From NCBI GenBank assembly GCA_017503785.1, contig JAFVSK010000026.1, forward strand, positions 1 through 48,862: a stretch of DNA of 48,862 bases, written 5' to 3'. Under the pieces are notes generated by a model, which had not been told where the DNA came from, made no database searches, and worked only from the letters and a program-made list of their open reading frames with translations. Origin of the DNA: Clostridia bacterium. GTDB lineage: Bacteria; Bacillota; Clostridia; Oscillospirales; Acutalibacteraceae. Within the stretch, counting starts at the first letter, position 1. Every line of letters starts with the position of its first letter. The translations under genes were made by a program, and so were the position numbers. This document shows, piece by piece, positions 7,104 to 48,862 of this stretch.

Positions 7104-7186
7104 CGATTCGCCCTGTGCGATGACACTGCGAGCGTTGTAATCCGATCTTGCCGTGAGTGCGGCATGACATTCTCAAGGAGTTTCTC

Positions 7187-7948
7187 ATGGCAGCACGCAG
7201 CTTCAATGGCGCTGGCGACGTTTACTTTAACCGTATGGTGGACGGCGTAAAGCAAGGTCTTGTCGGGCCGATCTACGCCGACAGTCTCTCGATCACCCCC
7301 AGCGTCGAAACGATCCAATCGACCAGCAAGGGCCGGTATGACTATGGTCAGGTGCTGGAGAGCGTGAACATCGCCCAACCGTCTGAGTTCTCCATGGCGC
7401 TTAAGGAAGTTACCGGCGACATCTTGACCATGGCCTTCCTCGGAACCTCTGCCGCGTTCACCGAAGCCTCCGGCACGCTGACGGGCTACGACCTGACTGT
7501 CACACAGGTGGGCACATGGCTCCCCATCGGCAAAAAGAATCTCGCCACACTGGTTACCGTTGAAGACGCGGCCACTGGTGGCGCCACGCTGATCGAAGGC
7601 ACCGACTACAAACTGAACCGCCCCATGGGCTGGATCATGGCGCTGGCCGGGGGCGCTCTGGCGGTAAACGACCACGTTTTCATTACCTGCGCACATAGCG
7701 GTGCCACGGGCACGAACGTTAAGGGCTCCACCCGCACAGAAGTTCGCGTTGAAATCATTTTCGACGGTATCAACCAAGCTGACGGCACCCAGTGCACGGC
7801 AACGATCTGGGAAGCCATCCTGGCGCCAGACAGCGAGTTTGACTTCCTGGCGGATGACTTCGGGAACGTAAACCTGACGGGGACACTGAAGACCCCGGTC
7901 GGCAAGGACGCTCCGTACGAGGTGTTGATCCAAGACCCCGTGGCCTAA
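7187..7948 (+). CDS. Major tail tube protein
   Basis: 253 residues. I start at the ATG at 7187 because CAAGGAG lies just upstream; an upstream in-frame ATG at 7157 has no such site. The sequence has repeated beta segments (GDVYFNRMVDGVKQGLVGPIY, SITPSVETIQSTSKGRYDYG) and a conserved tube-like end (TVWEAILAPDSEF-type, seen as TIWEAILAPDSEFDF). It should polymerise around the tape measure to form the tail tube. A strong intrinsic terminator follows, consistent with a separate, highly transcribed unit beginning near 7081. Confidence 0.85.
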   Translation: MAARSFNGAGDVYFNRMVDGVKQGLVGPIYADSLSITPSVETIQSTSKGRYDYGQVLESVNIAQPSEFSMALKEVTGDILTMAFLGTSAAFTEASGTLTGYDLTVTQVGTWLPIGKKNLATLVTVEDAATGGATLIEGTDYKLNRPMGWIMALAGGALAVNDHVFITCAHSGATGTNVKGSTRTEVRVEIIFDGINQADGTQCTATIWEAILAPDSEFDFLADDFGNVNLTGTLKTPVGKDAPYEVLIQDPVA

Positions 7949-7982
7949 GCACTGCTGGTGTGGCGGGCCCGCCCGCAGCCCA

Positions 7983-8019
7983 AACCCGCCACGCGCCTTC
8001 AGCCTGGCGGGTTTTTTCA
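7983..8019 (+). terminator. Rho-independent terminator after tail tube gene
   Basis: AACCCGCCA (7983-7991) pairs with TGGCGGGTT (8005-8013) around a 13-nt loop and is followed by a run of six T from 8012. A leaky terminator here would give more tube protein than downstream tape measure. Confidence 0.85.
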
Positions 8020-8032
8020 TTCAAGGATCGTC

Positions 8033-8704
8033 ATGCATAAATGCACCCGATGCGGGTTGACCAAGACCCCTAGTGAATTCTACAAAGCCACCAAGAATCC
8101 TTCGGGCCTGCAGTCCCGGTGCAAAGAGTGTTCGAAGGCGACAAACCGCGAGTGGATGGCGAAGCACCCGGAAAAAGCTGCGGAGTACACCAAGCGGTAC
8201 GAAGAGAACAACGCCGAGCGTCGCAAAGAACTCCGCGCGATCAGTCGCGCGGCGTATGCCCCGCGTCGTCTTGAACTGGGACGCGCGCTGGAAGAGAAAA
8301 ACCGCGCGAAGCGCAAGGCACAGGCCGACGCCCGTCGCGCGTCGATGCTTGATCGCCATAATGAAAAGTCGCGCCGTTGGCGCGCCGCGAACTTGGAAAA
8401 GTCCAAGGCCATCTTCAAGAAGTGGCGGGACGCCAACCCGGGCGTGATGGCGATGCATTCGGCGAAATGGCGCGCGGCCCTTTTGCAAGCAACCCCAACA
8501 TGGGCCGACCAAAAGAAGATCGCGGAATTCTATGAGGCCGCCGACGGCCTGAGCATGCTCACTGGGGAGTGGTATCACGTGGACCACATCGTACCGCTGC
8601 AAGGTAAGACGGTGCGCGGCCTGCACTGCGAAGCCAACCTCCAAGTCCTGCCTGAAGCCGAGAACATCCGCAAAGGCAACCGCCACTGGCCTGACCAGCC
8701 CTGA
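8033..8704 (+). CDS. Free-standing HNH endonuclease with N-terminal zinc finger
   Basis: 223 residues; start chosen at 8033 because the longer frame would run through the terminator. Residues 3-30 carry CTRCG and CKEC, a four-cysteine zinc-binding pair. Residues 40-150 are very basic and helical with repeats of the type KWRxANPEK. The C-terminus holds the HNH core: HVDHIVPL, then ANLQVLP and N. Such genes are usually selfish homing endonucleases that nick or cut related phage genomes. It sits between tube and tape-measure genes, where two tail-assembly chaperone frames are normally found; no chaperone is seen here. Confidence 0.85.
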   Translation: MHKCTRCGLTKTPSEFYKATKNPSGLQSRCKECSKATNREWMAKHPEKAAEYTKRYEENNAERRKELRAISRAAYAPRRLELGRALEEKNRAKRKAQADARRASMLDRHNEKSRRWRAANLEKSKAIFKKWRDANPGVMAMHSAKWRAALLQATPTWADQKKIAEFYEAADGLSMLTGEWYHVDHIVPLQGKTVRGLHCEANLQVLPEAENIRKGNRHWPDQP

Positions 8705-8712
8705 AAGACACC

Positions 8713-11700
8713 ATGGCTACTTCGAATCGTGATGTAACCCTCAAACTGAGCGTTGAGACCCTCGGTGAAGACGGTATCAAGGAACTGCAGAAGGCGGTTG
8801 AAGCTCTCGGGCGCGACGGCGGCGCAGCGGCGCCTGAGTTCCAGAAGCTCGCCGACGAGATCGGCCGCCTGGGCGAGCAGAGCCAAGCGCTGACCACGTT
8901 CCGGGAACTGAGCGAGGAAACCGACAAGCTGGCCGCGCGCCAAGTGGACGCCGCCGACAGCGCCGCGCAGATGGCCGAGCGGCTGGAGGTGTTGCGTGAT
9001 GCCACTGCTAAGGCCACCCAGCGGCAGAGCGAGGCCAACGCCGAGTTGTTGAAGGGTCAGCGCACGCAAGCCGAGGCCACGGCAGCGTTGCGACTCCTGA
9101 AGGCAGAATACGACGCGGCCGGGAAGAACACTGCAGCCTACCGCGACCAACTGGCCGATGCGGTCAAAGCTCAGAACGCAGCAAACGTCGAACTCGTAAC
9201 GCTGCGCGCCAACCAGAAGGCAGCCAACGCCGAAGCCTCGTCGGCCGTGGCCGAGCAAGGCAAACTGGAGACCCAGTACAAGAAGAGCGCGGCACAGGTC
9301 GAACGCCTGGACACCGCCCTGAACAAGCAGAACGAGGCGCTACGTCAGGCGACCACGGCGGCCGAGGCGCTGGGGCTGTCCACTGCAGACGTAGCTGCGG
9401 CTGAGGGCAAGCTGCAGGCGATCTTCAACTCTGGCGTTCAGACCGTAAACGCGCGCAACGCAGCGCTCCGCGAGATGGCAGAAGCCAACCGCCTGCTCGC
9501 CATCGAAGAGAAGGCAGTTGCAGACCTGCTGGCACGCGGCCAAGCGGCGCTGCAGGCCGAGACACTGGCCCAGCGCGATGCGGCGCGGGCCACGGAGCAG
9601 TACGCGGCCACAAAGCGCGAAGCGGCTGCGGCCAACGATGCCTGGCAGAAAGAGGCCGAGGCCCTGGTCAACGCGGCCCACGCCGCCCAGCAACTGGCCC
9701 GCGAGACCGAGATTTTGGCTGCGGCCCAGCGTGAACTCGCCAACCAGAACGCCTTCGAGAAGCAGGCCACCGAAGCGCAGAAACTGCTGCAGGCGGCCCA
9801 GTACGTCAAGTTCTGGGAGAACGCGCTGGAGCAGGCCGAGACCCAGGTCAAGCAGACCGCTGACGAAGCCCAGAAGGCTGCCCAGCGCATCGACAACGCC
9901 TTCGGCACGCTCGGCGTGCGCTCGGTGCAGGCCGTCCAGCAGGAAATCGCCGAGACACGCGCTGCGATGGCAACCCTGGCGACCACTGCCGGGCAGACGG
10001 GTGCACAGCTCTCCGGCGCCTTTGCTGCGGGCGAGAACAAGATCAAGGTGCTGGAGCGGGAAATCCGCGAGCTGACCGGCACGCTGACCACCGCCGACAA
10101 GGCGGCCGGCCTGTTCAAGAACTCGCTGGGCCAGATTGCGGCCGGCAACCTGATCGCGGACGCCGTGGGCGCGATTGTGGAGCGCGTCAAGGACATGGGT
10201 CGCCAGTTCATCGCCTCGGTCGTGCAGCTCGACACGTTCCGCCGGGCCATGAACGCTGTCTACAAAGACACCGCACTCGTCGCCAGCCAACTGGATTTCC
10301 TACGCAAGACCGCCAACGATAGCGGCGTGGGGGTGGGCGGCCTCAGCGACTCGTTCGTCAAGTTCTCGGCATCCATGAAGTCGGCCAACGTACCGGCGCA
10401 GCAGAGCAACGAGCTGTTCGCCTCGCTGACCCGCGCCGCAGGCTCGCTGGGCCTCGGCGCCGAGCGCACGTCCCTGGCCCTGGACGCACTCAGTCAAATA
10501 GCGTCCAAGGGCGTCGTTAGCATGGAAGAGCTGCGACAGCAATTAGGGGATTCCCTACCTGGTGCGCTCAGTTTGACGGCCAAGGGGCTCGGAATCACCG
10601 ACGCCGAACTGGTCAAACTGGTGGAGTCAGGCAACTTGGCAGCGCGCGACTTCTTCCCGTCGTTCACCAAGGGTCTGCAGGAACTGCACGGCGAGACAGA
10701 AGGCTTGGTGCCCACGTGGGAGCGCCTGAAGAACGCCTTCACACTGGCCGCCCAAAACGCTGGTGACGCCGGCTGGCTGGAAATCCTGACCATGGGGTTG
10801 CGCGGTCTGGGCCTGGCGGCAGGATCGGTACTGCTCCCGCTCAACGCCCTGTTTGAATTAATGGCGGGCCTGATCCGGTCTGGGGGAGCCTTGGTCGCAG
10901 CCATCGCCACATGGACAAACCCCATGGAGGCTTTGAGTGAAATCTGGGGACAGGCTGCGGATCGCCAGTCCAAGTTGACCGAGGCTTTCGACGCGACGAT
11001 CAAGGGGGTCGCTCAGACAAGCGCCGCCACGACGCAACTGACCAGTAAAGTCCAAGAGACTATCACCTCGACCGACGGCCTGACCAACTCGCAGAAGCTC
11101 GCAGCCATCGCGGCGCAGCTAAATGGAGACGCCACACTAGAGGCGGCTGCGAAGTACGTTCAACTCTCTATTGCCACGGCCACGCTGATCAAAGAGCAGG
11201 AGAACGAGACGCTGAACCTGGAGCGCGTCGCCAAAGCGCGCAAGGAAGAGGGTGAGACCCTGGTGGCGCTGGCGAAGTTGCGAGGCGATGAACAGGGCGT
11301 CCTGAAGGCAGCCAGCCAAGCGGCGGAAGAGTACGCACTTGCCAGCGCGCGGGTCGCGGCTTCGAAGCAGGAAGAGCTGAAAATCCTGGAGCAACAGTTG
11401 GTCGCACAGCAGGCCAAGCTCGAAGCCGACAAGGCGACGGCGGATCAGCAGGAAAAAGAGACGCAGAAGCTGCGCGAACTCATCAAGACCAAGCAGTCCG
11501 AGGTCGAGCAGACCAAGGCGTCAACGGAGGCGGCAAAACAGGAAGTCGCGGCGCGCAAACTGGCCGTTGAGATATACGGCGACCAGTCGGCCAAGATGGC
11601 CGAGTACCGCGCCGAAATGGATCGGCTCATCCTCGTCTTGCAAGAGTACGAAAAGCTCAACATCAACGGGAAAAAGACTGACGAGGAAGTCGCGGCTGTG

Positions 11701-12846
11701 CGCCAGAAACTGGCCGAGATAACGGCCAAGTACAAAGACACCGTGAATGACTTGGCACGGAACCTGCGCCTGCAAGCGGCAGAAGAAGTCGCCACGCTGA
11801 AGACCAAACAGGCTTCACTTTCCGTGGACATTCAGATTGCACAGGCAAGTGCCAACATCGCTCGCCTTCGTGGGGATAACACCAAGGCGATGCAGTTGGA
11901 GCGCGAGGCCATGGCGAAGCAGATCGAGGTCGCCAAGATCAAAATCGAGATCGACCGGGTACAGGCACAACTCCAGATCAAACTTCTCGAAAACGAGAAG
12001 TTGAAGCTCCAAGCCAGTGACGCCAACTACAAACTGTTGGTGCGGGAGTTGGACCTAAAGATCAAGTTGCAGAAGGCAACCCTTACCGAACTGGATGGCG
12101 CGGACAAACTCATCCGGTTGAAAGAAGAAGAGAACCGCCTGCGGCAGCAGGCCACCAACGACCTCGGCAGTGAGGCATCCGCGCGAGGCAACGTCACAGA
12201 GGCCAGCGAGCGCCAGGCCGACGCCATGGCGAAGATGCTCATGCAGTACACACTCAGCGCCGACTACAGCGAGCGGCAGATCGCCATCTTGGAACGAGAA
12301 GCCGCCGCCGAGGAAAAACTGGCCGAAGCCCGCCGCAAGCGCCTGAACGTGGACAAGGAAGGTTACTCCTTGAACACCGCAGGGGAGCGCGTGATGGCCG
12401 GGGAAACCCAAGAGCAGGTAGACCGCGACATCGCCCGGCGTTACGGCGAAGAGAACATCGGCAACCCAGACGCCATCAAGGCTCGCGGCCTGGCAGAGAT
12501 GCTGAAGTTCATCTCCAGTCAGGGTGGGCAGATTCGAGACCCCAACTACAGCAAGCAGGTGGCTGACATGCGCCGGCAACTGCAGGAGTTGGAAGCGAAG
12601 CTGCTCAACACAGGCCCGGCACCAGGCGGCACGGCGACCACACCCGCAGGTGGGGGATCGACGACGCCAGGCGGCAGCCCTTCGGGTGGGCGCCCAAGCA
12701 GCGGTGGCGTCAGCAGCGGGGGGAACCTGACCGTCAACCTCGGCGGCCGCAACCTCGGAACCATCACCGGACTGAACCCCACGCAGTCACGTGAAACTCT
12801 CGCAGTGCTTCGCGCACTTGAAACCTCACAAGGAACCGCAGCATGA
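8713..12846 (+). CDS. Tape measure protein
   Basis: 1377 residues, the largest gene. Residues 1-480 are a long helical coiled coil rich in Ala, Glu, Gln and Lys. Residues ~485-690 match the conserved tape-measure N-terminal domain: LDTFRRAMNAV, then GVGGLSDSFVKFSASMK, GLGAERTSLALDALSQIASKG and LRQQLGDSLPGALSL. Hydrophobic segments near 690-740 (LGLAAGSVLLPLNALFELMAGL) may insert in the membrane during DNA ejection. Residues 800-1230 are again coiled coil, and a Gly/Ser/Pro linker precedes a short beta C-terminus. Tail length scales with this protein, so the tail should be about 200 nm by the usual ~1.5 A per residue rule. Confidence 0.95.
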   Translation: MATSNRDVTLKLSVETLGEDGIKELQKAVEALGRDGGAAAPEFQKLADEIGRLGEQSQALTTFRELSEETDKLAARQVDAADSAAQMAERLEVLRDATAKATQRQSEANAELLKGQRTQAEATAALRLLKAEYDAAGKNTAAYRDQLADAVKAQNAANVELVTLRANQKAANAEASSAVAEQGKLETQYKKSAAQVERLDTALNKQNEALRQATTAAEALGLSTADVAAAEGKLQAIFNSGVQTVNARNAALREMAEANRLLAIEEKAVADLLARGQAALQAETLAQRDAARATEQYAATKREAAAANDAWQKEAEALVNAAHAAQQLARETEILAAAQRELANQNAFEKQATEAQKLLQAAQYVKFWENALEQAETQVKQTADEAQKAAQRIDNAFGTLGVRSVQAVQQEIAETRAAMATLATTAGQTGAQLSGAFAAGENKIKVLEREIRELTGTLTTADKAAGLFKNSLGQIAAGNLIADAVGAIVERVKDMGRQFIASVVQLDTFRRAMNAVYKDTALVASQLDFLRKTANDSGVGVGGLSDSFVKFSASMKSANVPAQQSNELFASLTRAAGSLGLGAERTSLALDALSQIASKGVVSMEELRQQLGDSLPGALSLTAKGLGITDAELVKLVESGNLAARDFFPSFTKGLQELHGETEGLVPTWERLKNAFTLAAQNAGDAGWLEILTMGLRGLGLAAGSVLLPLNALFELMAGLIRSGGALVAAIATWTNPMEALSEIWGQAADRQSKLTEAFDATIKGVAQTSAATTQLTSKVQETITSTDGLTNSQKLAAIAAQLNGDATLEAAAKYVQLSIATATLIKEQENETLNLERVAKARKEEGETLVALAKLRGDEQGVLKAASQAAEEYALASARVAASKQEELKILEQQLVAQQAKLEADKATADQQEKETQKLRELIKTKQSEVEQTKASTEAAKQEVAARKLAVEIYGDQSAKMAEYRAEMDRLILVLQEYEKLNINGKKTDEEVAAVRQKLAEITAKYKDTVNDLARNLRLQAAEEVATLKTKQASLSVDIQIAQASANIARLRGDNTKAMQLEREAMAKQIEVAKIKIEIDRVQAQLQIKLLENEKLKLQASDANYKLLVRELDLKIKLQKATLTELDGADKLIRLKEEENRLRQQATNDLGSEASARGNVTEASERQADAMAKMLMQYTLSADYSERQIAILEREAAAEEKLAEARRKRLNVDKEGYSLNTAGERVMAGETQEQVDRDIARRYGEENIGNPDAIKARGLAEMLKFISSQGGQIRDPNYSKQVADMRRQLQELEAKLLNTGPAPGGTATTPAGGGSTTPGGSPSGGRPSSGGVSSGGNLTVNLGGRNLGTITGLNPTQSRETLAVLRALETSQGTAA

Positions 12847-13247: not shown

Positions 13248-15536
13248 GTGGCAATCTTGAAAGGCGATGTCCGCCTGGTAGCGTCGGCGGTGATGGATGA
13301 CGTGAGCGAAGGCGGCGGTGCCCCCACGGCGACGATCATCCAGGACGGTGAGAGCAACAACATCTTCCCGGACATCAGCGAGCTGGACCGCGCGGGCGGT
13401 CGGGTGAACCTGCGCAAAGTGCATGTGCACGTCCAGACGGGCGACCGTGACACGCTGCTGGGCACCAATTTCATTGTGGCCGAGCCCCCTAATGATCCGA
13501 ACGTGAGCATCACGGTCTTCTCTACCGGCGAGACCTTTGACACGCGCACCAACGCTGCGGATTTCATCGAAGCCTATCTGGTGAAAGGCCCCGCACTTCC
13601 GGGCTTCTTGCTGGAGAACCACGTCGCTGGTCAGCGGGCGATCCAGTTGTTCCAACGCCCCGGGTCCCCGCTCCCCGCTGTGGGCCGCACCCTGGTACTG
13701 GTGGCCGACGAAGACACCCCCGACGAGATCGTGCAGTACGTGCGCACGACGCGGGTGGAAAGCACCATCGGCACCTACACCGAACTGGTTGGCGGCGGTT
13801 TGGTGGACTTTGAAGCGGAAGTTGTCACCTGTGACATCAGCGATGCCTTGCGCGTCAACTTCCCTGGCTCACCCCCATCCCGGCTTTTCGCCGTGGCCGA
13901 CGGCAAGACTAAGGTCCGTGACACCACCGTCGCGGATGCCGGGTCGTACCACGGTGTCGTTGCCCTGGAATCGGCGGGGGCTATCGGCGACGCAACGGTG
14001 CAGGTGGAGAGCGTCTACACCCAACTGGTTCCCAACGCGCGGACGGAAGTCAGTGCGCTCGACCAGCGGCCTTCCGCACAGCGATCCTTGGTCTTGGCCG
14101 AGACGCCACGGCTTGTTACCGTTGGCGCCGCGCCGCACAGCAAGCGCATCAAGATCGGGCAGGAAAACCGCGGCTTCAATTTCGTTGACATCCTGCGGCC
14201 GTTCCCGGCTGCGAACTCCTTGGTGGTTTCCTTCCGGGCGCTCGGTAGTTGGTACACCATCCAGGACGACGGTCTCGGCAACCTGACGGGCACGGGGGTT
14301 GGCACCGTCAACTACGACAACGGCTCCATCGCCGTAACGTTCCCCTCGATGCCAGACGTTGGCTCATCCATCATCTACTCGTGGGGTGAGAAGTCTGCGT
14401 ACACCAACCGATCTGCCGCCATCGGTTTTCGGATGCCCGAATTGTCGTGGACCGTACCGCACTCCCCCTTGGAACCAGGGTCCGTCGTCGTGACCTGGGA
14501 GTCTGGGGGTGTGTTGAAGACCGCAACCGACAACGGCACAGGCGGTTTCACCGGAGACGCTACAGGCAGCATCACGTACAACAGCGGGTTCATCTCCCTC
14601 AAACCTTTGGCGATGATCGACCCAGGCGGCGAGTTCAACACCGAATACGCCTACACGTCGGCCCGCAGCGAGAGTTTCGCCGGCCTTAGCCCCGACGCCG
14701 GCGGTTTTGTGACCATCACCTTGAGCGAACCGCCCCTGGCTGGGACCATCACCGCCCGTTGGATCACGGTGCGCAACGTCAGCAACAGCAGCGGGACCAG
14801 CGATCTGGTGAGTGAAAGCAGCACGGAGATCGAGTACAACGGCGCCGTGATCGTAGACCCGCCGCGCTCTGGCGGTGGGGGCAGTACCGGCGGGGGTGGG
14901 GGCGGCGGGGGCGGTTCGTCCACATCCTACGCCTGGCTGGAATGCGGCAACCCGCAGGTCTTGAGCGGAACGGCGTTCAACTTAACCTTTGACGCAGGCC
15001 CCGGCGCGGACGGCACGTACTCCTGGACGACCATCACCCTTAAAGGTGGCGGCCTTGGCGCAACCTCCGGCACGTTCACCGTGTCAGGGGGTCAAGGGTC
15101 CTTCTCTGTACCAACAGTCTCCGGCTGGCTGGTGAACAGCACGCACCACGTTTTCGTGGAAAATCCGTCGTCCATCACGGTGGGCCAGTCGGTTGTTCTC
15201 TACAACTACAACGCCGGTTCTTGGCCTGTGCCAAACCCCAGCGTTCCCCTCACGATCAAAGCCCCGGCAGACGTGGTGCGCGATCCATTGGTGAGCGGCA
15301 GCGCTACGACCGGCGCGGTGGCCGTTGGTGGCGTCTATCCGGGCGGCATTCGAGACGACAACGGCGCTACTGTGTACGTCAACGTGATTCCAAGCAGCCT
15401 TGCAGGCTTTGGGAACGTGTACGACCCTCCGGCATCTGGCGGAGCCGTGTGGTCTTCCGGTGACCTGACGGCAGGCCAAAAATCGCTGATGAGCCGTGAC
15501 GGCGTGCTCAAGACCTATTTCCTCGCAGGGGCATAA
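13248..15536 (+). CDS. Large beta-rich tail protein with repeated modules
   Basis: 762 residues, GTG start with GGAG upstream. The middle (about residues 330-470) contains two related modules of the pattern DxGxGxxTGxxxGxxxYxxGxI, seen as DDGLGNLTGTGVGTVNYDNG and DNGTGGFTGDATGSITYNSG. The same pattern recurs in the next gene. Near residue 545 a Gly-rich hinge (GGGGSTGGGG and more) separates a C-terminal Ig-like region (GTFTVSGGQGSFSVPTVSGW). No enzyme signature. Likely a tail-tip or baseplate structural protein displaying beta domains; exact role unknown. Confidence 0.65.
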   Translation: MAILKGDVRLVASAVMDDVSEGGGAPTATIIQDGESNNIFPDISELDRAGGRVNLRKVHVHVQTGDRDTLLGTNFIVAEPPNDPNVSITVFSTGETFDTRTNAADFIEAYLVKGPALPGFLLENHVAGQRAIQLFQRPGSPLPAVGRTLVLVADEDTPDEIVQYVRTTRVESTIGTYTELVGGGLVDFEAEVVTCDISDALRVNFPGSPPSRLFAVADGKTKVRDTTVADAGSYHGVVALESAGAIGDATVQVESVYTQLVPNARTEVSALDQRPSAQRSLVLAETPRLVTVGAAPHSKRIKIGQENRGFNFVDILRPFPAANSLVVSFRALGSWYTIQDDGLGNLTGTGVGTVNYDNGSIAVTFPSMPDVGSSIIYSWGEKSAYTNRSAAIGFRMPELSWTVPHSPLEPGSVVVTWESGGVLKTATDNGTGGFTGDATGSITYNSGFISLKPLAMIDPGGEFNTEYAYTSARSESFAGLSPDAGGFVTITLSEPPLAGTITARWITVRNVSNSSGTSDLVSESSTEIEYNGAVIVDPPRSGGGGSTGGGGGGGGGSSTSYAWLECGNPQVLSGTAFNLTFDAGPGADGTYSWTTITLKGGGLGATSGTFTVSGGQGSFSVPTVSGWLVNSTHHVFVENPSSITVGQSVVLYNYNAGSWPVPNPSVPLTIKAPADVVRDPLVSGSATTGAVAVGGVYPGGIRDDNGATVYVNVIPSSLAGFGNVYDPPASGGAVWSSGDLTAGQKSLMSRDGVLKTYFLAGA

Positions 15537-15539
15537 CAC

Positions 15540-17435
15540 ATGGCAACCGGATACGCATACCTCGAACCCCAGCGCCGCCGCGCATCGCGCAAGGTCACAG
15601 CAGGCTCTTCGCACACGAAGACAACCTACAAGACCGAGAAGACACAGGAAACCTTGGTCAACGAACTCACTGACGACGGCACGGGTGGCCTCGGTGATTT
15701 CGGCACGGTCAACTACGGCACGGGCGCGCTGAATGTGCGCCTGGTCGAGCTTGACCTGACGACGGAAGGATACAAAAGCGATCACGAAGATGCCGAATCC
15801 TTCGAGAGCTATCTGGAGCCTTCCACCGGAGGTGACAGCGCGCAGAAAGGCGGGGAGTACGGCGACACATCCGTGGGTGAAGAGCTGTTGGCCGCTTCGA
15901 CGCTGACGGTGACGTACGCGACAGACTTCGCCAGCACGGTCACTACGGAGTACAGCTTCAAGCCCCCGACCATCACGATTGACCTGTGCCCATACACCAG
16001 CGACTACGTGGTGCCAAACAGCGTGCAGTTCACCTGGATGGGTCACACCTATGCGGACTACGACGGCGACCTGATTCGGGATCGCACGACCCCGGGCACC
16101 GGTTTTTTCGCAGGCCGAGTCAACTACGCGGGCGGCATCGCCGAGATCACAGACTACGTGGTGGACCCCCTCTACGACGCCGAAGACCTGACCATCACAA
16201 GCCTCTGGACTGTGCGTCAGAAGTGGACGACTGCCAGCATTTTCATGCGCACCCAGATCGCCCCCCTGAAGCCCGCCGGGTTCGTGATGAACCTGTCGGA
16301 CACGGAGGGTAACGCGATCACCGCCAGCGCGGGCATCGACGGCGTGATCGCGGGGACACACCTGCGCGGCAAGGTGGACTTCGAGACGGGCGTGGTCGAG
16401 TTGCAGTTCGGCGACTACGTTCTCGACACCTCGCTGACCGTCGAGCAGAAGCTGGAGTGGTGGTACGACGCGGACGACGTGGGCGCAGTTGAGGCGCTGA
16501 AAATCTGGCGCCCATGGCCTGTGGACCCAACCACACTGCGCTACAACAGCGTGGCTTACTTCTACCTCCCGCTGGACGCCGACGTGTTGGGCCTGGACCC
16601 CGTGCGGCTGCCACAAGATGGTCGCGTTCCCATTTTCCGCCCCGGTGGCTTCGCCGTGGTCGGCCATACGGCGGTAACCAGTCCGGCCACTGTGTCGAAC
16701 GGGCAAACCATCGACCTGGCCCGCACGCGCCTGTCTCGCGTTCGGGTGATCGGCGATGACGGTGACACGATCAACACTGGCTACACGGCCAACCTGGAAG
16801 CAGGAACGGTGACGATTGTGGACACCACCGGTTGGAGCCAACCCATCACCATCGAGCACCGCATCGAGGACTTGGCCCAGGTCAGCGATGTGCAGATCAC
16901 AGGCCAGATTGGCTTAACACGTCAGCTCACACACGACTTTCCGGTGCCAGGTAGCTACGTCTCGGGCGCCCTGATCGCGGGAGACCTGCGTAGCCGCATG
17001 TCCTTGATGTTCGACCAAGGCTCCTGGGATGGCACCACATGGTCGGATGTGGTGGACGGCTCTCCTGCCACGGGGACCTACAACAACACGCTGGCCCCCG
17101 TAGAGGTGAACAACCTTGGTGCCGTGACGGAGCGATGGGCTTTCCGTTTCACCAGCACCACGGCATTCCAGATCATTGGCGAACATGTCGGTGTGATCGG
17201 GACCGGGACCATCAATGCTGACTGCTCGCCGAACAATCCGGCCACTGGTACGCCGTACTTCACCATTCTGGAAACCGGTTGGGGTTCCGGCTGGTCGGTG
17301 GGAAATATCGTACGCATGAACACTGTCGGTGCGCAGTTCCCCGTGTGGGTGGCGCGCACGGTGCAGCAGGGCCCAGAAGCCGGCCTGGACTATTCGTTCT
17401 CTCTGATCACACGCGGTGGCGTGGATCGCCCGTAA
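15540..17435 (+). CDS. Large tail protein, related in modules to its neighbour
   Basis: 631 residues, starting three bases after the previous stop. Residues 38-60 (TDDGTGGLGDFGTVNYGTGA) match the module repeated in the upstream protein, followed by looser copies (GTGFFAGRVNYAGGIAEIT; GKVDFETGVVELQFGDYVLD). The C-terminal ~130 residues contain a distinct beta domain ending YSFSLITRGG. Together with the upstream gene this suggests duplication and divergence of one beta domain in the tail tip. Structural role is inferred from context. Confidence 0.65.
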   Translation: MATGYAYLEPQRRRASRKVTAGSSHTKTTYKTEKTQETLVNELTDDGTGGLGDFGTVNYGTGALNVRLVELDLTTEGYKSDHEDAESFESYLEPSTGGDSAQKGGEYGDTSVGEELLAASTLTVTYATDFASTVTTEYSFKPPTITIDLCPYTSDYVVPNSVQFTWMGHTYADYDGDLIRDRTTPGTGFFAGRVNYAGGIAEITDYVVDPLYDAEDLTITSLWTVRQKWTTASIFMRTQIAPLKPAGFVMNLSDTEGNAITASAGIDGVIAGTHLRGKVDFETGVVELQFGDYVLDTSLTVEQKLEWWYDADDVGAVEALKIWRPWPVDPTTLRYNSVAYFYLPLDADVLGLDPVRLPQDGRVPIFRPGGFAVVGHTAVTSPATVSNGQTIDLARTRLSRVRVIGDDGDTINTGYTANLEAGTVTIVDTTGWSQPITIEHRIEDLAQVSDVQITGQIGLTRQLTHDFPVPGSYVSGALIAGDLRSRMSLMFDQGSWDGTTWSDVVDGSPATGTYNNTLAPVEVNNLGAVTERWAFRFTSTTAFQIIGEHVGVIGTGTINADCSPNNPATGTPYFTILETGWGSGWSVGNIVRMNTVGAQFPVWVARTVQQGPEAGLDYSFSLITRGGVDRP

Positions 17436-17444
17436 GGATTTCCG

Positions 17445-18593
17445 ATGACCTCTCCGGTTGACACGTCCGTCAAACTCTTCCGCAGCACCATGCCGGGTGC
17501 ACCAGCGTTGCGCGGCCAAGTTGGCAGTCTGATCTCTTTGCTGGACGCCTGTTTGGTAAACGGTTGGGGCAGTCAGACCGCCTCGTCGGTGATCATCACG
17601 GGTGGTGTAGCCACGGCCACATTTCCAGCCGATCACGCAGCCGCCGTCGAGTCGGTGGTGCTGGTCGCAGGGGCGACACCTGCTGGGTTGAATGGCGAAC
17701 AGAAGGTGACCGCGGTGGCACCGAACGTCATCCGGTGGGCAACTGCTGAAGCTGACGGCACAGCCACCGGCACAATCACGGTGAAGATGGCTGCGGCTGG
17801 CTGGACGAAGGTTTACACCGGCACCAACTTGGCAGTCTACAAGTCGGCCGACCCGCAGGCCCACGGGCAGTTTCTGCGCGTCAACGACACCGGCACGACG
17901 GCGGCGCGGGTGGTCGGGTACGAGAATATGACTGCGGTGTCTACCGGCACAGGTCTTTTTCCTACGAGCGCGCAGCTCAGTGGCGGTTTCTATTGGGGTA
18001 AGTCTCACACGGCTGGTTCCGCGGACGTGGCGTGGGCGATTGCGGCCGACAGCCGTGCCTTCTACTTCAACGCTGCGGCGTATGTGACGACCGGAGGGCC
18101 AACAGCCAACGGTGGTGCGGCTTACTTTTTTGGCGACCTCGTGCCGCATAGTCGGTCCGGGGACGCCTACGCAACCATGCTGACCGGCGCGCCAGGTTCG
18201 GTGTGGGAAAGCTACGGTGGTCAGTACATCCTGTCTTCGGACGTAGCAACGCGCGCGATACCTCGCAAGGTAGACGGGACGGGGACCGCGATACAACCAG
18301 AAGTCTCGCCGTACACCGCGTACAACCTTAGTTTCTTGCCCAACACCGTGAATGGACGTGTCCCGTTCACGCCGATCATGGTGCGGGACTCGCAATCGCA
18401 AACAGGCATTCGTGCGGACATACCGGGGGGCAGGTTGTCACTGCACTTCGGCGCCGAAACTGTACTCTCCGAGCATCAAATCTTCTACGACACAGATGGT
18501 CGTGCTCGCGTGAACATGCTCGCGCCGAACAACATGACCAGTGCGTCGGGTTTCAACTCCCTCGCGGTTGATGTGACCGGCCCCTGGAGGTAA
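17445..18593 (+). CDS. Tail tip protein of unknown fold
   Basis: 382 residues; ATG preceded by AAGGATT. An N-terminal section (RSTMPGAPALRGQVGSLISLLD) recurs in phage tail-tip proteins, followed by a Gly/Thr/Ala-rich beta region and a motif area VYKSADPQAHGQFLRVNDTG near 125-145. The C-terminus (FTPIMVRDSQSQTGIRADIPG) is also beta. No catalytic residues can be pointed to. It sits in the compact run of tail genes and is probably structural. Confidence 0.6.
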   Translation: MTSPVDTSVKLFRSTMPGAPALRGQVGSLISLLDACLVNGWGSQTASSVIITGGVATATFPADHAAAVESVVLVAGATPAGLNGEQKVTAVAPNVIRWATAEADGTATGTITVKMAAAGWTKVYTGTNLAVYKSADPQAHGQFLRVNDTGTTAARVVGYENMTAVSTGTGLFPTSAQLSGGFYWGKSHTAGSADVAWAIAADSRAFYFNAAAYVTTGGPTANGGAAYFFGDLVPHSRSGDAYATMLTGAPGSVWESYGGQYILSSDVATRAIPRKVDGTGTAIQPEVSPYTAYNLSFLPNTVNGRVPFTPIMVRDSQSQTGIRADIPGGRLSLHFGAETVLSEHQIFYDTDGRARVNMLAPNNMTSASGFNSLAVDVTGPWR

Positions 18594-18597
18594 CGCC

Positions 18598-19347
18598 GTG
18601 GCCGCACACAAATATTGGCGTGCCAAGCTGATGACGGCCCCCACGCTGTCCACGCTTGAGCTGTCTGAGTTTCACCTGTTCGACGGCGCCACGCGCGTCG
18701 ATGCGGCGGCCACGCTGACGGCGAGTGCGGCCCCCACGGGTCCGCTGACCAACCTGTCTGACAACAACACGGCCACAGGCTGCTACTGGAGCACCGGAGG
18801 TGATGCGGTGGTGCTGACATGGACGTTTCCAACGGCCGTACAGGTTACAGGCATTGAGCTGGGCGCGCGCACCACAGCCTCTCGATTCCCCACCGCTCTG
18901 GTCTTGCAGGGGGGAGATGCCGTAACAGGAACGGGTCCTAGCCCAGAGTACACCACACTGATGGGGTTTGGTGTGAAGGCATTCGCCTCTGCCGCCAAGA
19001 CGGGGGTCATGCTGCAAGCTGTGCAGCCCACGGACGGTGGGGTGATCTACAGCGCGTTTGACTTTCAGACACCCAGCGGCATCGGCCGCGTACCCTACGA
19101 CGTGAAGCGAGAGATTCTGCCCGCCACCACGCCGAAGACGTACACCCCGCAGTTTGCCAAGGTGCGCCTGGTGCGTGACATTGACGGCAAGGTGATCCGC
19201 GAAGAGTGGTCGGACCCGACCACGGGGGAAGGCGCGTTCGAGGGTGTGGACGAAAACTACACGTACAGCGTAATCGCCATCTACCCGAGCGCCGATTTCC
19301 GCGCCGTCATCGCCGACCGCATCGAGCCCGAGGGCTACCCAGGATGA
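18598..19347 (+). CDS. Tail protein with discoidin-like (F5/8C) domain
   Basis: 249 residues, GTG start with GGAGG five bases before it. Residues 1-125 resemble an F5/8 type C fold: KYWRAKLM, LSELSEFHLF-like (TLELSEFHLFDGATRV), LTNLSDNNTATGCYW, then LTWTFPTAVQVTGIELG. Such beta-sandwich domains bind carbohydrate in many proteins. Residues 150-249 (VRLVRDIDGKVIREEWSDPTTG and YSVIAIYPSADFRAV) look like a second tail-associated beta domain. A surface-sugar-binding role at the tail tip is plausible but inferred. Confidence 0.6.
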   Translation: MAAHKYWRAKLMTAPTLSTLELSEFHLFDGATRVDAAATLTASAAPTGPLTNLSDNNTATGCYWSTGGDAVVLTWTFPTAVQVTGIELGARTTASRFPTALVLQGGDAVTGTGPSPEYTTLMGFGVKAFASAAKTGVMLQAVQPTDGGVIYSAFDFQTPSGIGRVPYDVKREILPATTPKTYTPQFAKVRLVRDIDGKVIREEWSDPTTGEGAFEGVDENYTYSVIAIYPSADFRAVIADRIEPEGYPG

Positions 19348-19781
19348 CCACGCTGGCACTCTCGGCTGCTGCGCGCGCGGCTGCGCTCGTGTCAGCTCGA
19401 CCTGCTGTGCTGCAGGCTCTGATCGACCTGGCCGACGCAGGCTCTGGTCCCGCGCAACTGGAAATCTACGGCACGACGCGCCCGGCCACCTCTGGTGACG
19501 TTCCGGGGGGCGCCGCCCTGGCAACCTTGGTGCTCACGAAGCCGTGCGGCACGGTCGAACTGACAGGGATTCTGCTCACGCAGGAGTCTGTGATCGGCGA
19601 CCTGATCGCAGTCAACGGGGCAGCGGTGTGGGGCCGGCTGGCAACCAGTGAAGGTGACCCCATCGCCGATGGCGACGTGACCGACATGGCGGGCGACGGG
19701 CCGTTCAAACTGGACGGCGCTGACGGCGTGAATCTCTACGCAGGAGGCCGGGCGATACTGGGCGCAACGGCGCTCTCATGA
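19344..19781 (+). CDS. Small tail protein
   Basis: 145 residues from the ATG at 19344, which overlaps the preceding stop; longer in-frame starts lie inside the previous gene and read as shadow. Ala-rich helical N-terminus (LSAAARAAALVSARPAVLQALIDLA), then beta segments (LEIYGTTRPATSG, CGTVELTGILLTQESVIGD). Similar small proteins sit before the baseplate hub in related phages. No specific function recognised. Confidence 0.6.
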   Translation: MTTLALSAAARAAALVSARPAVLQALIDLADAGSGPAQLEIYGTTRPATSGDVPGGAALATLVLTKPCGTVELTGILLTQESVIGDLIAVNGAAVWGRLATSEGDPIADGDVTDMAGDGPFKLDGADGVNLYAGGRAILGATALS

Positions 19782-21619
19782 GCACGAGCCTGATCTTCTC
19801 GGCCGCCCCAACCACTGGGCTGCCGGTACACCTGGTGTTCGGTGATGAGCCGACAGCCGACATCCCGAGCGTTGCCGTTTACGTCGAGGGGGTCTTCGAC
19901 CTGGTAGCGGATGACGTTTTCGACCTGACAGGCGCGGTTGCGTTTGAATACGTGAGCGGGGCCGAGCGCCCCGACGTGGGCGAAGTGCGCTCTGTCTACC
20001 AAGGGGCCGCTGCGTCCCAGGAGCCGATGCGCGGTGTGTGGCAAGACAGCACGCCTCTCGTTCCCCACTGGCAGAGCCGTTGGCAAGACGCAGACCCCGT
20101 TGAGTCGCCCACCGACCTGCGATGGCAGGACCAAGAGCGCCTGCGCAGCGACAGCACGTCGCATTACCAGGAGGCGGCGCCCCTGCAGACGACACTGGGT
20201 TCCGAATTTCAGGACCAAATTCGACTGCGCAACGACGCCTGGGCTCGATTCCAAGAAGCGCTGGGCATACAAAGTGCGCGCACGACCAAGTTTCAGGACA
20301 CCCTAAACGACCGGCGAAATTCAACCGCAGGGCGTTTTCAGGAAGCCGTCGGATACTGGAATTCAATTCTGGAAGGCTACCAAGATGCGCTGCCGTTCGG
20401 TGCACTGCTCGCCGGCCGATACCAAGAGGCCATGCCACCACCGGCGGGTATCTGGGTTCGGCCACCCGTGCCCGGACCGGACCCGTGCTACCTGCCTTCG
20501 TTGCCGGTACACCTGGTGTTCTCCGAGGCGCACGTCGATGCCGCGCACCTCGTTTTCATTTGCGAGCGGCACGGTGGGCCAACACCGGGCGGCACGGTCG
20601 TTGTCCCGATCAAAGAGGTCTACCTGGTGATCAACAGTGCAGTTCTGATTCGAGTTGAGGGTGCGGTGCCGATCCCCACGCTGTCCATGTCCATGTCGCT
20701 GGACGTGGACTCGTGGACGTGGAGCTTCAGCGCCTCCGTACCAGGCTACGCGCTGGCCGACATTGAGCCCGAGGACGGCGTGCCCGTGGACGTGCAGGCG
20801 ACGATCAACGGCACGCCCTACCGCTTCATCGTGGAGTCTATCTCCCGCGAGCGCACGTTCGGCCGGAGCGACCTGCGCATAGGTGGCCGTGGCCGCGCGG
20901 CGGTGCTCGACGCCCCGTACGCGCCGATCATGAGCTTCGGCAACGAGTTTGGCCGCACGGCTGAACAGCTCATGAACGACATCCTGACCGACAACGGCGT
21001 GCCGCTGGGCTGGGACGTGGAGTGGAACCCGGACGACTGGAACGTGCCTGCGGGCGTGTTCAGCCACCAGGGCAGCTACATCACCGCGCTGAACCAGGTG
21101 GCCGGGTCGATCTCGGCGTACCTGCAGCCCCACAACACCGACGAGGTGCTGCGGGTCCTGTCGCGCTACCCCGTGGCGCCGTGGGACTGGGCGGGCGTCA
21201 CACCCGACTTCGAGCTGCCATCGGCGGTGATGAGCCGCGAGAGCATCGAGTGGCGCGACAAGGCCCGCTACAACCGGGTGTACGTCATGGGCCAGCAGGT
21301 TGGGGTCAACGGCCGCGTGACGCGAGAAGGCACCGCTGGCGACTACCTGGCGCCCACCATCATCGACCCGCTGATCACCGAGGCGGTGGCCGCGCGCCAG
21401 CGGGGTATCGCCGTGCTGTCCGACACAGGCCGCATCGCCACAGTGGGCCTGCGCCTGCCGGTGCTCGCTGAGACCGGGATCATCGCCCCGGGCAGCTTCG
21501 TGCGCTACTTGGATGGGGGCATCGAGCGCATCGGTCTCACGCGCAGCGTGCAGGTCGAAGTTGGGCTGCCGTCTATCTGGCAAACCTTGGGGGTGGAAAC
21601 ACATGTCGAACCTGTTTAG
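19778..21619 (+). CDS. Baseplate hub-like tail protein with 14-residue aromatic-Gln repeats
   Basis: 613 residues, ATGA overlap with the previous gene. Residues 74-218 hold eleven copies of a unit starting [W/Y/F]-Q-[D/E/G], at positions 74, 88, 102, 116, 130, 144, 158, 172, 187, 201 and 215, so spaced 14 residues with one 15. The array is bracketed by two copies of LPVHLVF (residues 15-21 and 242-248). From ~270 to the end the protein looks like a tail hub (TATINGTPYRFIVESISRER-type and QLMNDILTDNGVPLGWDVEW), the family that crowns the tube and organises the tail tip. Hub assignment is moderate; the repeat is certain. Confidence 0.75.
   Translation: MSTSLIFSAAPTTGLPVHLVFGDEPTADIPSVAVYVEGVFDLVADDVFDLTGAVAFEYVSGAERPDVGEVRSVYQGAAASQEPMRGVWQDSTPLVPHWQSRWQDADPVESPTDLRWQDQERLRSDSTSHYQEAAPLQTTLGSEFQDQIRLRNDAWARFQEALGIQSARTTKFQDTLNDRRNSTAGRFQEAVGYWNSILEGYQDALPFGALLAGRYQEAMPPPAGIWVRPPVPGPDPCYLPSLPVHLVFSEAHVDAAHLVFICERHGGPTPGGTVVVPIKEVYLVINSAVLIRVEGAVPIPTLSMSMSLDVDSWTWSFSASVPGYALADIEPEDGVPVDVQATINGTPYRFIVESISRERTFGRSDLRIGGRGRAAVLDAPYAPIMSFGNEFGRTAEQLMNDILTDNGVPLGWDVEWNPDDWNVPAGVFSHQGSYITALNQVAGSISAYLQPHNTDEVLRVLSRYPVAPWDWAGVTPDFELPSAVMSRESIEWRDKARYNRVYVMGQQVGVNGRVTREGTAGDYLAPTIIDPLITEAVAARQRGIAVLSDTGRIATVGLRLPVLAETGIIAPGSFVRYLDGGIERIGLTRSVQVEVGLPSIWQTLGVETHVEPV
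19821..19840 (+). repeat. 20-bp direct repeat, copy 1
   Basis: TGCCGGTACACCTGGTGTTC occurs here and again at 20502-20521, both in the same reading frame and encoding LPVHLVF. The pair brackets the aromatic-Gln repeat array of the hub-like gene. Confidence 0.95.
20502..20521 (+). repeat. 20-bp direct repeat, copy 2
   Basis: Exact copy of 19821-19840. Recombination between the two copies would delete the array cleanly in frame (distance 681 bp, a multiple of three). Confidence 0.95.
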
Positions 21620-21821
21620 CCGGTTCCAGAAGCTGATCCCCACCTACCCGTTGCGCGTGGGTGAGGTGATCGCCTATGCCGACGGCGTTGCCACCATCCA
21701 GGAGCAGGGTGGTATGGCTACTGCACGCGGGGAGGCCACCGTGGGTGACCGCGTGTTCTTCCGCAACGGCGCAATCGAAGGCCCCGCGCCGGACCTGACC
21801 ATTGAGATTATCGAGGTATGA
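21603..21821 (+). CDS. Small tail-associated protein
   Basis: 72 residues beginning MSNLFSRFQKLIPTYPL, starting inside the end of the hub-like gene (17-bp overlap). I chose this ATG because the longer frame is a shadow of the upstream gene. The rest (GEVIAYADGVATIQEQGG, then GEATVGDRVFFRNGAIEG) looks like a small beta barrel. Similar proteins follow hub genes in Burkholderiales phages, which suggests a baseplate part; function unknown. Confidence 0.65.
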   Translation: MSNLFSRFQKLIPTYPLRVGEVIAYADGVATIQEQGGMATARGEATVGDRVFFRNGAIEGPAPDLTIEIIEV

Positions 21822-22402
21822 CCATGACCTTCACGGTTGAACAACTCGCGGCGGCCACCAGCGCGCCGTACGGAAACGCGCAGACCTACCACCAGCCCCT
21901 GCTGGATGCCATGGGTCGATTCGACATCTGCTCTCTGCAGCGCCAGGCGGCGTTCCTCGCCACCGTGGCGGTGGAGTCGGCGCACCTGTCGGCGGTGGAA
22001 GAGGGCCTGTACTACAAGGACGCCTCACGGTTGGCGCGCATCTACCCCCGCGCGTTCAAGAGCATGGCTGACGCCGAGCCATACGCACGCAACCCCAAGG
22101 GCCTGAGCGAACTGCTCTACAAAGGCATGCATGGCAGAGGTTTGGTGCAGCTAACTTGGCGCAAAAACTACGAACGCGCCGGCGAGTCGCTGGGGTACGA
22201 CTACGTGGGCAACCCCGCGCTGGTCACCACGCCAAAGCACGCCGCGCTGACGGCAGCCTGGTACTGGCACGACGCCAAGTGCAACGACCCGGCCGACAAG
22301 GGCGACATGACCGAGGTGACGCGGCGGGTGAACGGGCCAGCGCTCATGCACCTGGCCGAGCGCAAGGCGCAGTACGAGACTGCGCTGAAAGCACTGACAT
22401 GA
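21818..22402 (+). CDS. Endolysin, glycoside hydrolase family 19
   Basis: 194 residues, ATGA overlap with the previous gene. The GH19 (chitinase-like lysozyme) fold is clear: AAFLATVAVESAHL with likely acid Glu53, EEGLYYKDASRLARIYP around 61-77, GMHGRGLVQLTWRKNY near 105-120 and AALTAAWYWHDAKCN. It cleaves the glycan strands of peptidoglycan. There is no signal peptide, so export depends on a holin. The Rz/Rz1 pair follows, as in lambdoid lysis cassettes. Confidence 0.92.
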   Translation: MTMTFTVEQLAAATSAPYGNAQTYHQPLLDAMGRFDICSLQRQAAFLATVAVESAHLSAVEEGLYYKDASRLARIYPRAFKSMADAEPYARNPKGLSELLYKGMHGRGLVQLTWRKNYERAGESLGYDYVGNPALVTTPKHAALTAAWYWHDAKCNDPADKGDMTEVTRRVNGPALMHLAERKAQYETALKALT

Positions 22403-46593: not shown

Positions 46594-46691
46594 AGTGACG
46601 CAAGTGACGCATTTTGCCCTTTTTTGACTTTTTCCACCTATGCGTAAAGAGAGTTTTGGAAAAAGCACCTAAATGCGTCACTTGCGTCACT
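46594..46691. other. 98-bp inverted repeat with iterons, candidate replication origin
   Basis: The 21-bp arms 46594-46614 (AGTGACGCAAGTGACGCATT and one T) and 46671-46691 are perfect inverted copies. Each arm has two GTGACGCA words, so four in all. Nested inside, CTTTTTCC (46628-46635) mirrors GGAAAAAG (46658-46665), and the loop is A/T-rich. It starts 9 bp after the primase-helicase stop. This looks like an initiator-binding origin; a transcription terminator is an alternative. Confidence 0.6.
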
Positions 46692-48790: not shown

Positions 48791-48862
48791 GGCCATCCGC
48801 GCCCACCGCAGGCCATCCGCGCCCACCGCAGGCCATCCGCGTCCACCGCAGGCCATCCGCGC
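48791..48862. repeat. 20-bp tandem repeat running off the right end
   Basis: Unit GGCCATCCGCGCCCACCGCA is present in three full copies (the third with one C-to-T change) and a 12-bp partial at the window end. No coding frame is evident. As at the left end, the sequence stops inside a tandem repeat. Confidence 0.93.

Follow-up and report, generated by a model that had tools for sequence, protein, structure and literature searches.

The locus studied here raises the question of what a long and regular repeat is doing at the front of a phage tail protein. The window, which is the whole analysed stretch of 48,862 nucleotides (contig JAFVSK010000026.1 of assembly GCA_017503785.1, labelled as a Clostridia bacterium), contains a gene at 19778-21619 whose product carries eleven aromatic-glutamine pairs at almost constant spacing. 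Hubs occupy the point of contact between phage tail and cell. We tentatively propose, as one joint reading that we hold at somewhat below an even chance, that this gene belongs to a siphophage, a relative of Acidovorax phage ACF1, and encodes its tail hub, and that the N-terminal extension of this hub is a ruler-like scaffold of eleven units on the host-facing side of the hub, with a fixed motif and with variable filler that serves host recognition.

The array in the hub protein

The [WYF]Q pairs stand at residues 74, 88, 102, 116, 130, 144, 158, 172, 187, 201, and 215, and the spacing is 14 residues throughout except for 15 between 172 and 187, exactly as the original prediction had listed them. 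When residues 61-235 were shuffled 20,000 times with steps of 13-15 allowed, the longest run was three, compared with the eleven observed. An acidic third residue (D or E) had also been claimed, and it is present in ten of the eleven copies; the first copy reads YQG. In addition, there is a WQ at residue 98, which is out of phase, and one further pair at residue 601 in the hub domain. The unit consensus, drawn from the 210 units with exact spacing in 78 dereplicated homologous sequences, was [SAG]-R-[FWHY]-Q-[DE]-[AG]-x-[RP]-L-R-x-[AG]-x-x. The filler does diverge, as had been stated, but it does not vary freely at every position, for Ala/Gly occupies +3 in 88% of these units, Leu +6 in 40%, Arg -1 in 30%, and Pro +5 in 30%. 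At the DNA level, Tandem Repeats Finder detected no repeat within 19997-20437, so the copies would seem to be old rather than recent duplications.

The view of the product as a hub-like protein was borne out. The PHROG 6079 match spans residues 10-610, and the same family also matched all eight arrays that were tested alone. By fold match, the last ~335 residues form the usual hub ring subunit of the gp27/gp44 type, and the gene follows the tape measure gene in the tail module. Ahead of this domain come ~280 residues of added extension, flanked by two similar hairpin-like motifs. Residues 1-63 had low predicted local confidence (pLDDT) in the AlphaFold2 monomer. Furthermore, P221, G224, C237, Y238, L258, F260, and C262 were conserved in at least 90% of the aligned homologues (n = 65).

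A Pfam scan of the whole window protein returned no family at E 0.1. Meanwhile, the scan of eight arrays alone had a best E of 0.012, with every family found in a single member and no Pfam repeat family matched. A known PDB or Pfam repeat was therefore not accepted by sequence, since nothing beyond PHROG 6079 could be trusted and the PDB list consisted of designed helical proteins (E of at least 0.03) and EzrA (0.41).

Table 1. Features of the hub gene and of its neighbours in the window
Feature	Position	Strand	Basis or remark
Tail hub gene (613 aa): extension at the N-terminus, hub domain at the C-terminus	19778..21619	+	Open reading frame; PHROG 6079 tail protein, E 4.4e-131
Residues 1-63, ahead of the array: motif LIF...LVFG (by eye, hairpin-like), followed by a short variable stretch	19778..19966	+	Sequence, alignments
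Eleven-copy array, residues 74-220	19997..20437	+	Sequence, unit statistics
Aromatic codon starts of the array	19997, 20039, 20081, 20123, 20165, 20207, 20249, 20291, 20336, 20378, 20420	+	
Residues 221-276: PPxG-type anchor, proline-rich link, second LVF...LVF motif	20438..20605	+	Alignment
gp27/gp44-type hub domain	20606..21616	+	Fold match
Tape measure gene, distinct from the hub gene; marker of the tail module	8713..12846	+	
Product (249 aa) of the gene two upstream of the hub	18598..19347	+	Window copy without Pfam match
72-aa small protein adjoining the hub	21603..21821	+	PHROG 5076
Endolysin gene, after the hub	21818-22402		

The 14-residue period in homologues

Homologues were collected from named phages (11 of 38 records), genomes (24 loci), and viral contigs (the best 80 of 291 relatives), and 78 sequences were left once eight copies, identical or partial, and close relatives had been dropped. 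Both the conserved period and the divergent filler were found again in these homologues; the absence of such spacing, which the original prediction had named as evidence against itself, is thus not what they show. Across the 78 sequences, there were 284 aromatic pairs at lag 14 (z = 25.6) and 279 at lag 28 (z = 27.6), with smaller peaks at lag 15 (z = 3.3) and lag 16 (z = 6.1) and no excess at lag 7. For [WYFH][QED] pairs, the z value at lag 14 was 47.0. In a control on the hub domain of these 78 sequences, |z| reached 9.5 (5.6 at lag 14), and the extension gave 21.4 at lag 14, 18.9 at lag 28, and also 7.7 at lag 12. Since the hub values arise from relatedness alone, the z values of the array are inflated and a per-sequence test is safer. 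In that test, the period was significant at p < 0.01 in 39 of 77 homologues and at p < 0.05 in 55, and 14 was the best period among 8-20 in 53. Among the 11 named phages, p was < 0.01 in seven and < 0.05 in nine, and the best period was 14 in seven, with no period in L008 and L009. For the hub of Curvibacter phage PCA1 (L003), 14 was the best of the 13 periods (p = 0.001). Their recorded hosts are Acidovorax, Curvibacter, Psychrobacter, Pseudomonas, Stenotrophomonas, Shewanella, Marinobacter, and Pseudoalteromonas, and some have no recorded host.

To see how specific the pattern is, viral contigs were searched with a DNA pattern covering three units, and this returned at least 120 stretches; the search demands exact spacing of 14 and Asp/Glu, and thus misses many homologues. 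Among the matches listed, 48 open reading frames in 47 loci had the peptide pattern, and 17 of them had a hub domain. In 16 of these 17, no more than 5 of 11 filler residues agreed between the first two units. The remaining 31 were without a hub domain, and 25 of them were near-identical simple repeats (at least 6 of 11 filler residues common to the first two units). The other six (L150, L189, L192, L209, L223, and L229) were divergent, and short matches of three units therefore occur outside hubs as well. One of the six, a 146-aa phage protein (L189:7873-8313), starts with three 14-residue YQD-x3-LR units like the array consensus; family and PDB searches with it gave no useful match.

Near-constant length and fast-evolving filler

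The distance from Arg64 to Pro221 was 157-162 residues in 64 of 65 aligned homologues. In addition, unit i was most like unit i of other homologues rather than their other units (0.094 vs -0.391, filler only). Thus, the array is probably old and positionally fixed. Pooled over 13 disjoint pairs, the ratio of nonsynonymous to synonymous substitution rates (dN/dS) was 0.14 for the motif columns, which were picked because they looked conserved, 0.50 for the other array columns, where misalignment of the array may have inflated it, and 0.10 for the hub; dS was saturated in some pairs. In five pairs compared in 150-nt DNA bins, the array was ~40-66% identical, against ~72-98% for the hub domain. 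Likewise, the genes and the hub N-terminus in 17445-20440 were 49-60% identical to those of ACF1, against 75.0% for the hub domain. The low identity across the array and the upstream genes places the array within a variable part of the tail module.

What the extension may build

The hydrophobic profile of the array peaked at periods of 2.0 and 2.8 residues (amplitude reached in 0.034 and 0.048 of permutations), whereas the amplitude at 3.5 residues was no better than chance (0.706). Proline was present in 44% of the units, mostly at +5. Because of these peaks and the proline content, the unit leans weakly towards an extended strand and a turn. For a beta meander or solenoid, the alternation was marginal, and the models were of low confidence.

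On the scaffold reading, each unit would be a short extended or beta strand with a tight turn at the aromatic-Gln-Asp/Glu-Ala/Gly residues, and the three copies of the extension in the hub trimer would co-fold only upon assembly. We infer that the extension would be positioned under or around the hub on its host-facing side. The motif residues would fasten the scaffold and fix its length, and the outward filler, free to change, would form or dock a variable host-recognition surface, in concert with the product of the gene two upstream, which is variable and often lectin-like. The stronger claim, an undescribed repeat fold in which three chains of eleven 14-residue units make a fixed-length scaffold with constant fastening residues and exposed fast-evolving host-recognition filler, seems to us unlikely. 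If true, it would mean that an antireceptor can be varied through repeats at constant size. More generally, an extension that is common at the N-terminus of hubs, strictly periodic at 14 residues, and nearly constant in length although its filler changes fast would represent a novel route to building and diversifying a tail tip; the array would amount either to a new repeat fold or to an assembly-dependent binding rail.

Several results weigh against this proposal. The period was not significant at p < 0.05 in 22 of 77 homologues (including L008, L009, L033, and L034), and in 1 of the 65 aligned homologues (L028) the array was shorter, at 105 residues. The beta-type periodicity was marginal and was found at two of seven periods tested, uncorrected. 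The AlphaFold2 monomer of the window array had no confident fold (pLDDT by blocks 30-47) and was mostly coil with two short strands, and the model of the regular homologue L030 was a low-confidence helix (blocks mostly 52-75), contrary to the beta reading. The original prediction had taken predicted disorder as evidence against itself, and this was half borne out: confidence was low in both monomers, and only the window model was mostly coil. Furthermore, array similarity tracked the gene two upstream beyond the hub (partial r = 0.59, 38 of 65 rows), but it also tracked its own N-terminus (0.81), the link at residues 222-276 (0.62), and the third gene upstream (0.58); for the adjacent gene the value was 0.39 (38 of 65 rows). 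Such co-variation with other linked pieces means that plain mosaicism may explain the link between the array and the lectin-like gene. A specific link of these two is thus at best weakly indicated.

The main rival, which we consider somewhat unlikely, treats the array as short linear motifs strung along an intrinsically disordered chain, in which each aromatic-Gln-acid-Ala unit would bind one site on a repeated partner (an adhesin, distal tail subunits, or tail-tube subunits), with the spacing matching the partner's repeat and the filler serving as linker. The low pLDDT across the array in the monomer models agrees with this, as do the three strong positions per unit and the weaker, fast-evolving filler. 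However, linkers usually tolerate changes of length, yet the array keeps its length almost everywhere, and the enriched Leu at +6, Ala/Gly at +3, and small residues at +9 suggest packing within the unit.

Instead, the lumen of the hub might house the extension, which would serve as a plug or as a grip for the C-terminus of the tape measure protein and would leave at DNA ejection. The net charge was positive in 62 of 65 arrays and in only 2 of 65 hubs, which would suit a lumenal position, and N-terminal hub extensions can be hard to place, as for the Jersey hub in the available text of PMC13243795. Nevertheless, the window array is acidic (-7, the lowest of the 65), 280 residues in three copies would be bulky where the tape measure protein is held, and fast divergence better suits an exposed part. 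We regard this position as improbable. The window value is also why positive charge as a clue to DNA or lipopolysaccharide binding was set aside.

A coiled coil or a helical aromatic ladder, the latter an example offered by the original prediction, is more doubtful still. Fourteen residues would make four turns at 3.5 residues, and the L030 model is helical; but neither a heptad nor a 3.5-residue hydrophobic period was found, proline is frequent in the units, and the window model is mostly coil. The heptad was thus rejected on lag analysis and hydrophobicity, despite the low-confidence helix. Finally, a tandem duplication relic without structural role is very improbable, for although a few homologues (L030, L048, and L085) have homogeneous arrays, the likeness of unit i across phages, the absence of a 42-base DNA tandem repeat in the window, L027, and L030, the near-fixed length, and the conserved motif columns all speak against it.

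Comparison with known tail proteins

Variable parts of hubs are usually found on the C-terminal side. In gp27, Mu gp44, and VgrG-type hubs (PDB 9ki1, 1wru, 8fqc, and 1k28), the order differs from that of the window protein: among the matches listed, the hub match starts within the first nine chain residues in 39 of 50 relatives, whereas the window hub has ~280 residues with the eleven-unit array ahead of it. In the available text on the hubs of JBD30 (gp53, PMC11445458) and T5 (pb3, PMC8616854), extra fibronectin-like domains follow the core towards the C-terminus, and an N-terminal repeat array is not mentioned there. The C-terminal brush antireceptor domains of hubs, as far as described in the accessible part of PMC13243795, resemble the array as a variable siphophage hub appendage thought to meet the host; however, they are C-terminal and polyglycine-rich, and the array is N-terminal with 7.7% Gly.

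The nearest printed idea that we found in the accessible open-licence literature is the aromatic repeat of tape measure proteins, with periods of 11 and 18 residues (PMC5099701, as available). It shares with the array the regularly spaced aromatics, the divergent filler, and the setting in a tail protein. Nevertheless, identity with it is ruled out by the gene and by the period, since the array has a period of 14 and lies in the hub, and the tape measure protein is a separate gene. The PHROG 6079 library entry is named only tail protein, and the repeat is not described in it. In agreement with the original prediction, we found no description of the array in the accessible open-licence literature.

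Neighbouring genes and the source of the phage

The nearest named relatives found were the Acidovorax phages ACPWH and ACF1, whose DNA matched 34% and 28% of positions 1-24000 of the window at ~75% identity; the hub is ~55% identical to theirs. For the gene two upstream of the hub, ten proteins were tested, and the domains found were Laminin_G_3 (three), SPRY (two), and F5/8 type C (one), with none in four, including the window copy. By eye, the 72-aa protein resembles the C-terminal end of the longer L009 hub protein. Directly before the tape measure gene is an endonuclease VII/HNH kind of gene (7958-8704), and the preceding open reading frame (7157-7948) may be the tail tube gene. The adjacent open reading frames 13248-15536 and 15540-17435 both match the 1200-residue PHROG 6128, of which the second covers the C-terminal half; ACF1 likewise has two genes at this place.

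Among 394 genomes of the order searched, the hub was present only in the window's own genome. Identical phage DNA (99.985-100% over the compared stretches; L013-L016, L029, and L038) was found under three other labels, namely an Aeriscardovia metagenome-assembled genome (MAG) from cattle abomasum, an Eggerthellaceae MAG from roe deer jejunum, and the isolate Vreelandella rituensis TQ8S. Misbinning or a shared contaminant probably accounts for the window contig, and because of the relatives of the phage, the true host may be a betaproteobacterium. The window ends in tandem repeats at 1-116 (9-bp unit, 12.9 copies) and 48791-48862 (20-bp unit, 3.6 copies), and these perhaps mark the place where the assembly broke. 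In addition, 18-bp tandem doublets at 46594-46611 and 46674-46691 are mutual inverse copies (AGTGACGCA twice and TGCGTCACT twice) and are a possible binding site.
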